64,000 bases of DNA from Fusibacter sp. 3D3 (GTDB lineage: Bacteria; Bacillota; Clostridia; Peptostreptococcales; Acidaminobacteraceae): positions 143,057-207,056 of the forward strand of contig NZ_BDHH01000008.1 in the NCBI RefSeq assembly GCF_001748365.1, read 5' to 3'. The position numbers and the translations under genes are program-made. Shown here one piece after another: positions 25,636 through 60,320 of the stretch. Position 1 is the first letter of the stretch. The number at the start of each line of letters is the position of its first letter. The notes under the pieces are model-generated. The model did no database searches. It was not told the DNA's origin and worked only from the letters and a program-made list of their open reading frames with translations.

Positions 25636-25713
25636 CCCAAAACAAGCCTATCAATTACTAAAATTTAACTTGCAATGATGTGAAAATCATGTAAAAATAA
25701 TCATACTACGGTG

Positions 25714-25805
25714 ACAGAGTAAGTAAAATGCGTTAAGTGTTAAGGAATGGGAAGTTGTCCTTAAACGAAAGAATTTTTTCTGCGATATTTTACTGCATCC
25801 GCTGT
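25714..25805 (+). promoter_or_regulatory. THF (tetrahydrofolate) riboswitch aptamer
   Basis: The conserved core is present in order: GCGTTAAGTGT (25730-25740), GGAATGGGA, AACGAA, GCGAT, and the 3' block TGCATCCGCT. The helices are visible: P1 ACAG/CTGT (25714-25717 with 25802-25805), P2 AGTAAAAT/ATTTTACT (25722-25729 with 25787-25794), and P3 TTAAGGA/TCCTTAA (25740-25746 with 25758-25764). THF riboswitches bind reduced folates and control folate transport and synthesis. The next gene is a folate ECF S component, which confirms the assignment. Confidence 0.9.
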
Positions 25806-25814
25806 TGCATTATG

Positions 25815-32087: not shown

Positions 32088-32131
32088 CACTACAAAATGG
32101 TTGGGAAATCATAAATCGTAGTGTTTTTTTT
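32088..32131 (+). terminator. Rho-independent terminator or attenuator before the Na/Pi symporter
   Basis: CACTAC (32088-32093) pairs with GTAGTG (32118-32123), with an inner ATGGTT/AATCAT stem, followed by T8. It lies 32 nt before the symporter start, so it could be an attenuator. Confidence 0.8.
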
Positions 32132-32162
32132 ATGAATACAATGAGATTGAAGGGAGATTTGT

Positions 32163-35534: not shown

Positions 35535-36626
35535 ATGAGTAAAAGAGCTATTGCATTAATAATGGTCGTTATGCTTGTGGGTATGATGTTAGCAGGATGT
35601 GCATCTAAACCGGCGGCAACAGAACCAGCTGCAGAACCAGCAGCAGAAGCAACACCAGCTGCAGAACCAGCAGCAGAACCAGCTGCAGAAGCACCAAAAA
35701 GCGATATGGTAATGGGTATGATCACAGATACAGGTGGACTTGGCGATCAATCGTTCAACGACTCTGCTTGGTTAGGTCTTGAAAATGCTGAGAAAGAATT
35801 TGGTATTACAAGACAAGTTCTTGAATCTCAAAGTGCAGATGACTATTCACCAAACTTAGTTTCATTTGCTGAAGAGCAAACAGACCTTATCTTTGGTGTG
35901 GGTTTCCTATTTGATGAATCCATGAAAGCAGCAGCAGATAAGTTTCCAGAACAAAAATTTGCGATTGTGGATTCACAAGGTTTAGGCAAATCAAATGTTG
36001 CAGAAATCGTTTTTGCTGAGAACGAAGGTTCTTTCTTAGTGGGCGTTATTGCTGGTCTTAAAACTGAAACCAATAAAGTTGGTTTTATCGGCGGTATGAA
36101 ATTCCCATTAATCGAAAAATTCGAGTACGGTTTTAGAGCTGGTGTTAAGGCTGTAAATCCGGATTGCGAAGTTATCGTGAACTATGCAGATTCATTTGAA
36201 GATGCTGCAAAAGGTAAAGAAATTGCTTTAGTTCAACATCAAGCGGGTGCAGATATTATTTTCCATGCTGCTGGCGGTGTTGGCGCTGGTTTAATCGAAG
36301 CGGCTAAAGAAGAAGGTTTCTGGGCAATTGGCGTTGACCAAGATCAATCTCATATGGCACCTGAAAGTGTATTGTGTTCTATGATCAAACGCGTTGACGT
36401 TGGCGTTTATTCAGTTGCTAAGTCTGTTGTAGATGGTAGTTTCCAAGGTGGTACATTAGTATTTGATGCTAAAAGTGGCGGCGTTGGTTACAGTGATAAA
36501 GCGGGTAACTTGACAGATGATTTAAAAGCAGCAGCTGATAAATATCTTGAAGCTATTAAAGCGGGCACATTTGTAGCGCCTTCAACAGAAGCTGAATTTA
36601 ATGCTTTTGAGGCACCAACATTATAG
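35535..36626 (+). CDS. BMP-family ABC transporter substrate-binding lipoprotein (probable nucleoside)
   Basis: The 363-residue precursor has a lipoprotein signal with lipobox LAGC|A near residue 22, an Ala/Pro/Glu-rich linker to about residue 55, then a BMP (PnrA/TmpC-like) domain. Conserved features include DTGGLGDQSFNDSAW at the start of the mature protein and GVDQDQSHMAPES near the ligand pocket. This family delivers purine nucleosides such as guanosine to an ABC importer; the next three genes encode it. The linker repeats (EPAAEA units) resemble that in PstS here. RBS GGAGGA lies 8-9 nt upstream. Confidence 0.9.
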   Translation: MSKRAIALIMVVMLVGMMLAGCASKPAATEPAAEPAAEATPAAEPAAEPAAEAPKSDMVMGMITDTGGLGDQSFNDSAWLGLENAEKEFGITRQVLESQSADDYSPNLVSFAEEQTDLIFGVGFLFDESMKAAADKFPEQKFAIVDSQGLGKSNVAEIVFAENEGSFLVGVIAGLKTETNKVGFIGGMKFPLIEKFEYGFRAGVKAVNPDCEVIVNYADSFEDAAKGKEIALVQHQAGADIIFHAAGGVGAGLIEAAKEEGFWAIGVDQDQSHMAPESVLCSMIKRVDVGVYSVAKSVVDGSFQGGTLVFDAKSGGVGYSDKAGNLTDDLKAAADKYLEAIKAGTFVAPSTEAEFNAFEAPTL

Positions 36627-36679: not shown

Positions 36680-36691
36680 ATATAACCCTTG

Positions 36692-36733
36692 GGGAGATGA
36701 ATCCCCACGTCTTAAAGTGGGGGTTCATCTCCC
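36692..36733 (+). repeat. Long perfect-ended hairpin, IS200/IS605-end-like
   Basis: GGGAGATGAA (36692-36701) and CCCCAC (36703-36708) pair with GTGGGG and GTTCATCTCCC (to 36733), about 17 bp in all, around GTCTTAAA. The ATCCCCACGTCTT...GTGGGG pattern resembles right-end hairpins of IS200/IS605 elements. No transposase is nearby. Confidence 0.4.
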
Positions 36734-36829
36734 TAATTCAGAGGGCGTGCAAACGGCCACTGAATACAATCTGATAGGATTGTGCAAGGGTTACGAAGGT
36801 AGCGAAGCGGACTGAGTATACGCTTTGAT
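36734..36829 (+). repeat. Leader repeat copy A (paired with copy B at 60121-60216)
   Basis: This 96-nt block recurs on the other strand at 60121-60216 with the same architecture. Both copies have an ATTCAG/CTGAAT stem (36736-36741 with 36760-36765) and a CAATCTG-TAGGATT segment. Tandem CGAAGGT(T/A)(G/A) units follow, then GACTGAGT and GCTTTGAT. It ends 35 nt before the ATPase gene start. Copy B ends 30 nt before an unrelated gene, in the same orientation relative to its gene. Confidence 0.75.
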
Positions 36830-36864
36830 CTTGCTTTTATGAACATCATTGGAGGGAATTTAAG

Positions 36865-38388
36865 ATGGCAAAAGTTGTCGAAATGAAAAACATAACAAAG
36901 GTCTTTCCTGGTGTGGTTGCAAACGACAGTGTGAATTTTGAACTCGAAAAGGGAGAAATCCATGTATTATTAGGTGAAAATGGTGCGGGTAAAACCACTT
37001 TGATGAATATTCTTTATGGCTTGTATGAGCAGACATCAGGTGAAATTTTTGTCAATGGACAACTCGCAAACATCAAAGACCCTAACATCGCAATCAAGCT
37101 TGGAATTGGGATGGTCCATCAGCATTTTATGTTGGTCGAGCCATTCACAGTTACTGAAAATATCATTTTGGGTGCAGAAACTTCTAAAGGACCTCATAAT
37201 ATCCAATTGGATATGGAAACTGCCTCAAAAAAAGTTAAAGAAATATCGGAATTATATGGATTAGCTGTTGATCCAAATGCCAAAATTGAAGACATTACCG
37301 TAGGCATGCAGCAGAGAGTAGAAATCTTGAAAACCCTTTATAGAGGGGCTGAAATTTTAATTTTAGATGAACCAACAGCAGTTTTAACACCACAGGAAAT
37401 CGAAGAACTTGGCATGATATTGCAAAAATTAGTAGGTCAAGGCAAATCGATCATCCTGATTACGCACAAACTCAAAGAGGTTATGTCGATGAGTGATCGT
37501 GTTACAGTCGTGCGCAGAGGCAAAGTAATTGAAACCCTTAAAAAAGAAAATACGAACATTGATGAACTTGCAGAACTTATGGTTGGCCGTAAAGTAAACT
37601 TAAAAGTGGATAAAGCAGATCATAAATCAGGCAAGACTGTTTTAGAAGTTCATGGCATAGAAGCAATGAATAATAGAGGCTCAAAAGCCCTTAAAGAAAT
37701 ATCTTTTGAAGTCAAAGCGGGTGAAATATTTGCGATTGCAGGTGTTGATGGTAATGGGCAAACCGAACTTGTTGAAGTGCTCACAGGCTTAAGAAAATCC
37801 ATTAAAGGCACCTTTGCGGTCAATGGCAAGGACCTTCAAAAGATGTCTAGTAAGAAAATTATTGATAGTGGCATGGCGCATATACCAGAGGACCGACACA
37901 AAAGAGGTCTAGTGCTTGAACATTCTCTTGCGGAGAATGGCTGTCTAGGCAATCATAAAGATGAACCTTTCAGTAAACATGGCATACTCAATTACGACTA
38001 TATTCATGAATACTGTAGGAACCTCATCACCGAATACGATGTTAGGACACCAAACGAGAGGGTTTCGGCAAAGGCGCTTTCGGGTGGTAATCAGCAGAAA
38101 TTCATTGTGGCTAGAGAACTGAATAGACATCCAGAACTCATTATTGCATCACAACCTACTAGAGGGGTTGACGTGGGTGCTATTGAATTCATTCACAAGA
38201 AATTAGTGGAACAACGCGATATGGGTAAAGCCGTTTTATTGGTATCTCTTGAACTCGATGAAGTCTTGGCACTTGCGGATCGCATCGGTGTTATCTATGA
38301 TGGTCAAATCGTCGGGATTGTAAGTGGTGCTACCGCTGATGAAAAAGAACTGGGTATTATGATGGCTGGTGGTAAGGTTAATAAATAG
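36865..38388 (+). CDS. Nucleoside ABC transporter ATPase (tandem, BMP/NupO-type)
   Basis: The 507-residue protein has two ATPase halves. The first has Walker A GENGAGKTTLMNIL, signature VGMQQRVEILKTL and Walker B ILILDEPTAVL. The second has VDGNGQTELVEVLTG and LSGGNQQKFIVAREL, with the degenerate second-site Walker typical of this type (YufO/NupO, RbsA-like). It energises the two permeases encoded next and works with the BMP lipoprotein upstream. GGAGGG lies 8-9 nt before the ATG. The terminator-like stem and leader repeat upstream separate its expression from the binding protein gene. Confidence 0.92.
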   Translation: MAKVVEMKNITKVFPGVVANDSVNFELEKGEIHVLLGENGAGKTTLMNILYGLYEQTSGEIFVNGQLANIKDPNIAIKLGIGMVHQHFMLVEPFTVTENIILGAETSKGPHNIQLDMETASKKVKEISELYGLAVDPNAKIEDITVGMQQRVEILKTLYRGAEILILDEPTAVLTPQEIEELGMILQKLVGQGKSIILITHKLKEVMSMSDRVTVVRRGKVIETLKKENTNIDELAELMVGRKVNLKVDKADHKSGKTVLEVHGIEAMNNRGSKALKEISFEVKAGEIFAIAGVDGNGQTELVEVLTGLRKSIKGTFAVNGKDLQKMSSKKIIDSGMAHIPEDRHKRGLVLEHSLAENGCLGNHKDEPFSKHGILNYDYIHEYCRNLITEYDVRTPNERVSAKALSGGNQQKFIVARELNRHPELIIASQPTRGVDVGAIEFIHKKLVEQRDMGKAVLLVSLELDEVLALADRIGVIYDGQIVGIVSGATADEKELGIMMAGGKVNK

Positions 38389-58512: not shown

Positions 58513-60090
58513 TTACTTATAGTAATGATAAAGATCGCGAATAAGTGAAAACTCATTTGGGTGACTGTCGTAAAGCTCTTGTAAGAGTGCTGTGTCGCCT
58601 CCATTTGCTCTTATTCTAAAAAGTTCGTCAAAAGCTTGAGATTCAAATTTAAGACTTAAATCAGCAAATGAACTGAGAAAACTATTTTTCTTTATACGAG
58701 AGAGTGCTTTATCCATGTAGAAGCCTTTAGCATGATTTTGCTGTGATGATGGTTTGCTAAAGTCAACGCGATTTCTCAGCCACTCCGCATGTGCTTCTGC
58801 TTCTAATTGGCGCATTTCTTCTTCGTATTCTTTTTGAACGACGGCAAGCTCAGTTGCTTTTGCTTTAACGCGACTATCATATTTGGCTTTTTCAAGTGAT
58901 TCTAAATAAATTTGGTATAGTTCCCAAGACGAATAGCCATTTGCACGGGCTATTTTTTGACGGTCTGCTTTGATTCTGGTAATAGTATCAAAAATATTTT
59001 GATTGATGATTTCACCAGCTTTTAAATAAACATTACATTGTTCTTCGAATAGATTTAGGTCAATTTTTGCTTTAGAGAGGGCAGCATCCATTTCAGCTTG
59101 CATTCTACTCGGTGTTCCTACTATCGCATATACTAAGTAACCTTCGGTTACTTCATAAACATTTCTAAAACTTGCTATGACTTCATATGCCAAAGGCGTT
59201 AGAATATCATTTTCATCTATTTGGATCGAACTAAAATCACTTGTGTCCCTTATATTAAAATCAACGTATAATTGGCGATCCATGTTTTTTGTGGCACGGT
59301 AGAGCGTTGAGTCTGTTCCGCCTTTGGAGTAGAGGTCTACACATTTGGTAACGGTCTCAAATACATCTTTATAACGCTTTAAATTTTCTTTGTGAGCAAG
59401 TGCGACTTCTTGAAGCATTCTGTTTAAGTTTTGATCAATTTCAATGCCATATTCACGCATTAAGCTGATTTCATAAGCTTGATTATAAAATTCACTATAA
59501 TATTGACTGTGATTTTCGTATTCTGATTCTGAACCAGATGTGCCATTTTCTAAATCAATTGCAGAAGATGCAAGGCCTGCGCTCCCTAAATCAAGGATTC
59601 CAGCAAGTGTATAAAGTTCATCAACAGCTTTTTTAAGAGGTTTGTAGGCACTGTACTTGTAAGTTTGGACAGCAGATATTATGCTTATTTTGTTACCAAA
59701 TTCGATTAACTCGGATTGATAAAATTGTAAAAAACTCATATCTAAGACGTTGTTATTATTTACTTCGTTTTCTGCAATTTTTAATTTTGTGTGTAAGCTA
59801 TTGAGTTCATCTAGGTAAATCGGTAATAAATAATCATGCTTTTCTTGCGGTGTCATGATGTTCCATTTTGCTTCAAAGGCATCTTTTTCTTCTTGACTTA
59901 CTTGCGATTCAGCAATTTTTAATTGGTTCAAGATTTCTTCTTCAGAAACAGTAACTTTTTTTTCAATTGCACGTTTCTCTGCAACAAGGGTTGGTAAGTG
60001 TTGCGCCCCAATTGCATATGTAGAGGTTGTTGCCATTAGGCATGTGATAAAGCCCATAATGATAATTTTTGAAAATCGATTCAGTTTCAT
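58513..60090 (-). CDS. Exported helical protein of unknown function
   Basis: The 525-residue precursor has an N-terminal signal peptide (FSKIIIMGFITCLMATTSTYA, cleaved after Ala near residue 26). The rest is mostly helical, with predicted coiled-coil around residues 400-450 (KAKATELAVVQKEYEEEMRQ). There is no lipobox, second membrane helix or catalytic motif that I recognise. The start is supported by AGGAGACC 6-8 nt upstream. The 5' leader carries copy B of the repeated leader element, and a minus-strand TATAAT lies at about 60233-60238. It is transcribed opposite to the CRISPR genes. No function can be assigned. Confidence 0.75.
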   Translation of the reverse strand: MKLNRFSKIIIMGFITCLMATTSTYAIGAQHLPTLVAEKRAIEKKVTVSEEEILNQLKIAESQVSQEEKDAFEAKWNIMTPQEKHDYLLPIYLDELNSLHTKLKIAENEVNNNNVLDMSFLQFYQSELIEFGNKISIISAVQTYKYSAYKPLKKAVDELYTLAGILDLGSAGLASSAIDLENGTSGSESEYENHSQYYSEFYNQAYEISLMREYGIEIDQNLNRMLQEVALAHKENLKRYKDVFETVTKCVDLYSKGGTDSTLYRATKNMDRQLYVDFNIRDTSDFSSIQIDENDILTPLAYEVIASFRNVYEVTEGYLVYAIVGTPSRMQAEMDAALSKAKIDLNLFEEQCNVYLKAGEIINQNIFDTITRIKADRQKIARANGYSSWELYQIYLESLEKAKYDSRVKAKATELAVVQKEYEEEMRQLEAEAHAEWLRNRVDFSKPSSQQNHAKGFYMDKALSRIKKNSFLSSFADLSLKFESQAFDELFRIRANGGDTALLQELYDSHPNEFSLIRDLYHYYK

Positions 60091-60120: not shown

Positions 60121-60216
60121 ATCAAAGCATACACTCAGTCAGCTTCGCTACCTTCGCAACCTTCGCAACCTTCGTAATCCTACCAGATTGCATTCAGCGG
60201 GAGTTTCTGAATTAGG
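60121..60216 (-). repeat. Leader repeat copy B (paired with copy A at 36734-36829)
   Basis: Read on the minus strand, this 96-nt block begins CCTAATTCAG and has the ATTCAG/CTGAAT stem around a shorter 9-nt loop. The CAATCTGGTAGGATT segment is followed by four tandem CGAAGGTTG-like units (one more than copy A), then GACTGAGT and GCTTTGAT. It ends 30 nt before the exported-protein start. Confidence 0.75.
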
Positions 60217-60320
60217 AATATGAAGTGATATTGTTATTATAGCATGTTTGATGCTTGATAAGCTAACAGGAATCTCCTGAAATATTTGAATTTAGACTAT
60301 AATTTACTCGATTTTTACAG

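Follow-up and report, generated by a model that had tools for sequence, protein, structure and literature searches.

The window analysed here, a stretch of 64,000 nt from Fusibacter sp. 3D3, contains two copies of a folded repeat on opposite strands, each followed by a gene in the same orientation, and one site at which the repeat is absent and its F. ferrireducens ortholog is occupied. The features are as follows.

32120..32160 (+): empty site TACAA/TGAGA with the break at ~32141, orthologous to a filled F. ferrireducens site (L241)
35535-36626: gene for a PnrA/Bmp-type binding protein (Pfam), preceding the downstream gene of copy 1
36681..36685 (+): TATAA, 5' of the insertion point of copy 1
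36686..36829 (+): copy 1, full-length mobile repeat of 144 nt, starting with CCC directly after TATAA
36691..36733 (+): hairpin P1 of copy 1 (GGGGAGATGAA..TTCATCTCCC), from sequence and the covariation helix, outside the interval described earlier
36736..36765 (+): hairpin P2 of copy 1 (ATTCAG..CTGAAT), from fold and covariation, the stem described earlier
36767..36782 (+): hairpin P3 of copy 1 (CAATC..GATTG), from fold and covariation helix
36790..36819 (+): conserved hairpin R of copy 1 (GTTACGAAGGTAGCGAAGCGGACTGAGTAT), from alignments and covariance model
36820..36829 (+): 3' tail of copy 1 (ACGCTTTGAT), the end of the unit, with no consensus beyond
36865..38388 (+): gene after copy 1, ABC transporter ATPase (Pfam)
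58513..60090 (-): gene after copy 2, 525 aa, no family in a Pfam search at E 0.001
60121..60251 (-): copy 2, decayed, with a degraded 5' part, a shortened P2 and extra CGAAGGTTG units before R
60131..60160 (-): hairpin R of copy 2, from alignment and covariance model

An earlier note on this DNA had described a 96-nt leader element with a conserved ATTCAG/CTGAAT stem, present in two copies at a fixed distance before two genes. Alignment and a covariance model confirmed two homologous copies on opposite strands, alignable over the features named in that note, and a start codon indeed follows after 35 nt in copy 1 (36829 to 36865) and after 30 nt in copy 2 (60121 to 60090). The model, whose alignment excludes both window copies and includes L089, the ortholog of copy 1 in F. 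ferrireducens, scored copy 1 at 132.9 bits (36681-36819, +, E 1.5e-33) and copy 2 at 47.8 bits (60131-60251, -, E 5e-11), and a scan of the window at E <= 5 returned only these two places. None of 200 shuffles reached the fold stability of copy 1 (z -3.1). Copy 2, in which the first hairpin is not recognisable, folded no better than its shuffles (z -0.9, 27 of 200 as good), and its extra CGAAGGTTG block occurs in one of 36 aligned copies, which is copy 2 itself. In copy 1 the GGGTTA that opens hairpin R also closes the junction by pairing with an upstream TAACCC. R of copy 1 further contains AAGGTAGCGAA (window 36796-36806), which we take to be a highly conserved stretch of 23S rRNA; this may be chance.

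Both copies are thus real, but the element is neither 96 nt long nor limited to two places. The full unit (CCCTTGAGG...CGCTTTGAT) comprises about 143 nt and starts 48 nt upstream of the start given before, and its 3' 20-mer GACTGAGTATACGCTTTGAT has 141 matches (<=3 mismatches) in the Fusibacter sp. 3D3 genome (5.1 Mb in 57 contigs), compared to 0 for the reversed control. The left 18-mer has 116 matches (control 2), and the R core matches 174 times in this genome, 39 times in F. ferrireducens and 0 times in the third Fusibacter genome. We gathered 115 distinct right ends rather than all 141 (<=4 mismatches, a few of them probably chance matches) by a procedure that favours exact right ends, and 71 of these copies align from the first three positions and are termed full-length. 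TATAA stands directly 5' of the unit in 61 of the 71, with an A at -2 in all of them, while the gathered copies have no consensus 3' of the right end and the unit sequence has no terminal inverted repeats. Fourteen consensus matches scored in this genome (of 178 candidates) were 99-100% identical over 146-148 nt, a near-identity that we read as a sign of a recent burst. Tandem copies are joined as TTTGAT-CCCTTG, some copies carry internal deletions, and others are 3'-end remnants of the last 20-50 nt.

Comparison of the copies showed a conserved fold that consists of a four-way junction, made up of the closing helix P0 (TAACCC with GGGTTA) and the hairpins P1-P3, plus the 3' hairpin R. Among 36 diverse copies, 91.5% of the cells in four helices are paired and 18 of 47 pairs are changed on both sides; shifting the partner by one column lowered pairing to 51-54%. 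No shuffle out of 500 scored as high on any of five measures, and a second test, in which 18 of 37 pairs had changed on both sides, was likewise equalled by 0 of 500 shuffles; these controls leave the common ancestry of the copies in place. Unguided RNAalifold on 29 copies, including the most diverged, recovered the closing helix, P2, P3 and R with 30 pairs, 15 of them compensatory, and missed P1, whose length is too variable for this alignment. With the structure given, P1 was paired in 52.7% of the cells and P0, P2, P3 and R in 95.9-100%. Five chosen copies folded with z -5.5 to -12.4. Since the stems covary strongly, the earlier note was right about them, even if ATTCAG/CTGAAT is merely one of several covarying helices.

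Hairpin R is nearly invariant (mostly TAC GA AG GTA GC GNA GC GGA CT GA GTA), with one of seven pairs changed on both sides, and because most R pairs never vary, covariation says little for R itself. Its inner part, GCGAAGC, is an unusually stable DNA hairpin. Wobble counts were considered as a test of the folding strand (RNA or either DNA strand) and discarded, as they were not robust between two alignments. In alignment A2, G-T cells outnumbered A-C cells by 84 to 35, or by 62 to 35 when a single pair dominated by G-T was left out (p 0.008, from sequences that are not independent); in alignment A3 the counts were 48 and 32, with 25 of the 48 in one pair, leaving 23 against 32. At sites common to both species, R is identical at 24-28 of 28 positions (184 of 196 overall). 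In the stem pairs of these sites, aligned by a fit to the model, 11 changes are compensated, 7 are one-sided and still paired, 21 pairs are broken in one species and 2 are broken in both and different, and 36 cells have gaps. Because many stem pairs are broken there, the fold is best explained by selection that would act during mobility, with at most partial upkeep after insertion.

At the empty site of the window, the orthologous F. ferrireducens locus holds a copy with two R units between TACAA and TGAGA, and comparison with the empty allele reveals no target duplication. A second site is filled in F. ferrireducens (L076) and lacks the element in Fusibacter sp. 3D3 (L150), in an alignment that is not clean. 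Of three further 3D3 copies with an upstream flank matched in F. ferrireducens, one has TATAA at the edge (L084). One copy lies inside a tnpB of IS605 (L023), where the intact gene (L032) reads TATAA-CTTTTG, and another adjoins a tnpA fragment (L014/L051). At L128 (G000:C17), two right-end remnants point in opposite directions ~470 nt apart; one of them has taken the place of the final codons of a gene, which now ends at a stop codon within the remnant, and the F. ferrireducens ortholog (L196) ends differently. Taken together, the dispersed near-identical copies, the 5' TATAA, the clean empty site and the copies in IS605 genes suggest that a mobile repeat, which the earlier note had named as the other option, is the better one, although the target duplications that the note had predicted for it are absent. 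The repeat inserts on the 3' side of a fixed motif and leaves the target unduplicated, as is characteristic of the IS200/IS605 type. A classical DDE-type MITE was ruled out, as there are neither terminal inverted repeats nor target duplications.

The repeat has a narrow distribution. BLAST against 61 genomes including its own gave 41 matches in F. ferrireducens (G002), 15 short ones in a genome of another genus of the family (G015), which correspond to a short common hairpin core, and none in the other 58. The covariance model, applied to 41 genomes of the family including its own, found strong matches in Fusibacter sp. 3D3 (G000; at least 80, the number scored) and F. ferrireducens (43), weak ones in G029 (one) and G015 (three), and none in the third Fusibacter genome (G001) with the stricter filters used. 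A looser pattern matched only F. ferrireducens in a collection of named genomes from which Fusibacter sp. 3D3 was possibly left out. The 148-nt unit had no match in plasmids and phages at E 0.01, and an exact 28-mer of it was present neither in viral contigs nor in named genomes. Judged by these searches, F. ferrireducens is the only other genome with strong matches. The G015 repeat (L059, L062, L065, L068, L080) resembles the Fusibacter repeat in a long hairpin with CCCCCACTT followed by a ATTCAGTGGGAG hairpin, but it is directly preceded by TTTAT in the copies examined, ends with CATTTAT and lacks R, only the hairpin core being similar; it is possibly a sister mobile family. Two tandem copies of it occur in L080.

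We propose that the repeat most likely represents a new family of mobile folded repeats of Fusibacter, and probably a non-autonomous (MITE-like) element that moves as a folded single strand. Given its many copies and their insertion after TATAA, the position before two genes in the window would reflect an insertion preference and not a common control. IS200/IS605 elements move as single-stranded DNA in a strand-specific manner, and their cleavage sites pair with guides located 5' of palindromes (excerpts of PMC8266576). Transposition of this kind is suggested because the strict 5' target, the free 3' side, the lack of duplication, the hairpins and possibly the strand bias match. A Y1/HUH (IS200/IS605-type) transposase would act in trans on the top strand, with R as the right-end hairpin, and the GGGTTA at the foot of R would be the guide that pairs across the left cut TAA|CCC and sets the TATAA target. 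After insertion, R and a spacer would multiply in tandem, and any influence on the genes nearby would be a side effect of a very stable structure in the transcript.

Fusibacter sp. 3D3 has 26 matches to Y1 transposases and F. ferrireducens has one full-length match plus three partial or distant ones; none of the loci of the 26 matches revealed an autonomous element that has both ends of the repeat. In the tnpA-tnpB IS605 group the target is TTTAA and the right end GTCAC, and in a scan of the transposase loci its ends had only a 22-nt hairpin stretch in common with the repeat; the ends of the IS200 group and of a 171-aa group differ as well, so that none of these three groups in this genome shares its ends with the repeat. 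A fragment of the tnpA-tnpB IS605 group, or of its guide-RNA end, was ruled out because the ends differ. GGGTTA pairs with TAACCC, as a guide would, and no copy showed a matched change of guide and target. The copies that comprise only the last 20-50 nt count against the proposed mechanism, since a two-ended HUH element alone does not explain them. Twelve IS605 left ends of this genome (L031-L038, L040, L041, L049, L050) all lie after TTTAA; these loci carry tnpA, most of them with tnpB, and ten have the right end GTATGTCAC.

Placement relative to genes was evaluated with simple ORF calls (at least 80 aa, greedy), so that the counts are approximate. Of 102 single copies in Fusibacter sp. 3D3, 95 were classified as lying between genes and 5 as lying inside ORFs, and 2 had a neighbour called on one side only. 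By comparison, 708 of 1135 other TATAA sites in the same stretches fall inside ORFs. In co-directional gaps, 55 single copies are on the strand of the genes and 11 on the opposite strand, compared to 153 and 116 for the other TATAA sites (Fisher p 6e-5), and in F. ferrireducens the ratio is 14 to 0 (p 5e-4 against the TATAA sites of Fusibacter sp. 3D3). An earlier classification of 66 full-length copies had given U+D+ 36, U+D- 6, U-D+ 12 and U-D- 12. Divergent and convergent gaps are used alike (15 and 14 copies, 64 and 67 other TATAA sites, p 0.84). At 68 of 104 sites the flanks have a positive GC skew when read on the strand of the element (p 0.002), as strand-biased insertion would produce, though selection could do so too. 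The orientation bias fits either single-strand insertion on a replication-linked strand or selection.

In older copies R is repeated together with a spacer, in units of mostly 64-69 nt, some of 45-49, 73-75 or 122-130 nt. R comprises about 30 nt and the spacer 34-39 nt in most arrays, and the period is nearly constant. Spacers are mostly identical within an array, and ten that were compared included one related pair (L090/L096). Several arrays hold the P3 hairpin in the spacer (e.g. L231, L234, L244), and other spacers show only stretches that resemble a hairpin (z between 0.05 and -1.8). Among the 16 F. ferrireducens loci included in the comparison, 7 have the element at the same site among the 3D3 loci examined, with longer flank matches 78-94% identical, and these elements are therefore old. 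Quite different spacers can occupy the same orthologous site in the two species (L182 against L067/L090; L190 against L085/L091). Among 15 clusters of Fusibacter sp. 3D3 with at least two R cores, 12 lie on the strand of both neighbours, one is co-oriented with the downstream gene only, one with neither and one was called inside an ORF; at least 4 of the 15 are tandem whole copies and not R arrays.

Such arrays bring up the alternative that the mobile repeat has been exapted, with the four-way junction and the R arrays of older copies affecting the stability, processing or translation of neighbouring mRNAs. Of 17 copies in F. ferrireducens, 14 are flanked by genes that all read in the direction of the element, and for 16 the downstream gene has this direction. 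Among 20 loci with at least two R units, 19 have an ORF of 60 aa or more on the element strand within 300 nt, in a count made on that strand only and with no control; the sequence of the 20th (L095) ends 45 nt after the array. The elements common to both species and their well-kept R point in the same direction, but at these very sites broken pairs outnumber compensated ones and the fold is not strictly kept. The equal use of divergent and convergent gaps also argues against exaptation, as do the L095 site (as L073), which was called convergent, and the genes after array loci, which are diverse and show no common theme when their translations are compared. By resemblance we presume that they encode a TetR-like regulator, a WecG/TagA-like glycosyltransferase, M20-like hydrolases, a ferredoxin, PurE, an ABC ATPase, NrdR, a LysR-like regulator, dehydrogenases and pyruvate kinase. 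On this balance we regard exaptation as rather unlikely, although R arrays between co-directional genes may have a secondary regulatory role. Likewise doubtful is a more far-reaching idea, according to which a mobile one-strand element, with a four-way junction that carries its own guide (GGGTTA for TAA|CCC) and a nearly invariant R, would be mobilised in trans, and its arrays would grow and renew their spacers between co-directional genes, forming a new class of mobile and expandable RNA elements used by the host.

That the repeat is a dedicated cis-regulatory leader RNA (riboswitch-like) common to the two genes of the window, as initially thought, has become very improbable. It would account for the covarying stems and for the 30-35 nt spacing of both window copies, and the search for many copies with covarying stems that the earlier note had suggested did reveal covariation and a non-random orientation. 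However, no preference for 5' leaders emerged, the supposedly fixed distance to the gene ranges from overlap to >700 nt, and the repeat has more than 100 copies. Since this distance varies and the downstream genes are diverse, a dedicated leader switch is unlikely; no regulon is apparent, copies lie inside transposase genes and strong matches occur in only two species. The repeat does not stand consistently before genes of one pathway, as a riboswitch would be expected to. Rfam had no match at gathering score at either window copy. At a lax threshold, the best match on other loci was BTnc231 with 44.3 bits compared to a gathering score of 80.4 (E 1e-6 on L231), and a known Rfam family was rejected, such matches below gathering score being judged chance hairpin likeness. 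Across the whole window a single Rfam family reaches its gathering score, a THF riboswitch aptamer at 25713-25806 (+; 84.7 bits).

A SINE-like retro-insertion from RNA would explain why nine copies picked by eye consist of the last 23-51 nt only, with an intact or near-intact end, and why 3'-truncated copies are just three or four among 20 left-end stretches without a listed right end; the joined flanks of 5 of the 9 short copies run on in F. ferrireducens. It has little to commend it nevertheless, since TATAA is strict at the 5' junction and nothing is fixed on the 3' side, gathering anchored on the 3' end favours short copies, forms with internal deletions grade into them, and the genome has just two reverse transcriptase matches, one of them beside a CRISPR-like repeat tract. 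At L191 (G000:C14:121217-121831), a reverse transcriptase match lies in an 836-aa open frame near CRISPR-like direct repeats with a spacer of ~35 nt. A CRISPR-like origin of the arrays, by off-target spacer integration at R, can practically be dismissed, for despite the length of R, the regular spacers and period, and spacers mostly unrelated between arrays, the spacers within an array are mostly the same and not different ones of foreign origin, several hold a copy of P3, and ten of them had a best match to phages of E 4.

As a mobile folded repeat, the Fusibacter element can be compared with known systems. From excerpts of PMC8266576, it resembles IS200/IS605-derived non-autonomous elements and TnpA-REP/REP systems in the fixed 5' target motif, the lack of a visible target duplication, the end hairpins, a strand bias that may stem from insertion and a possible guide at the hairpin foot, but differs in having a closed four-way junction instead of two simple end hairpins, in its expandable R arrays and in that no end-matched transposase was found. 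Like BOX of Streptococcus pneumoniae, as portrayed in parts of PMC3049150, it is a small dispersed, intergenic and modular repeat that would be folded if transcribed, and between its fixed end modules an internal module may be missing or present in varying numbers; unlike BOX, R is short and constant and the spacer differs between arrays. The likeness drawn here is one of working. A literature search on Fusibacter repeat elements found nothing, and a term search in the available text of a MITE review (PMC10969869) gave no mention of IS605, IS200, PATE or Fusibacter. The repeat is at most a candidate member of BOX or of the single-strand transposed non-autonomous elements, and no autonomous partner with corresponding ends was found. 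BOX, REP and similar small folded repeats are common, but what they target and which enzyme mobilises them is often unclear. The Fusibacter repeat offers a defined target, a clean empty site in a two-species comparison, a fold supported by covariation and tandem modules that differ at orthologous sites, which makes it a convenient system in which to study how folded repeats pick their sites and whether hosts come to use them. In one array (L233), R is followed in two of three units by AGGAG and then ATG TAT CTG TAG, and in the third by ATG TAT ATT TAG, a possible tiny ORF.
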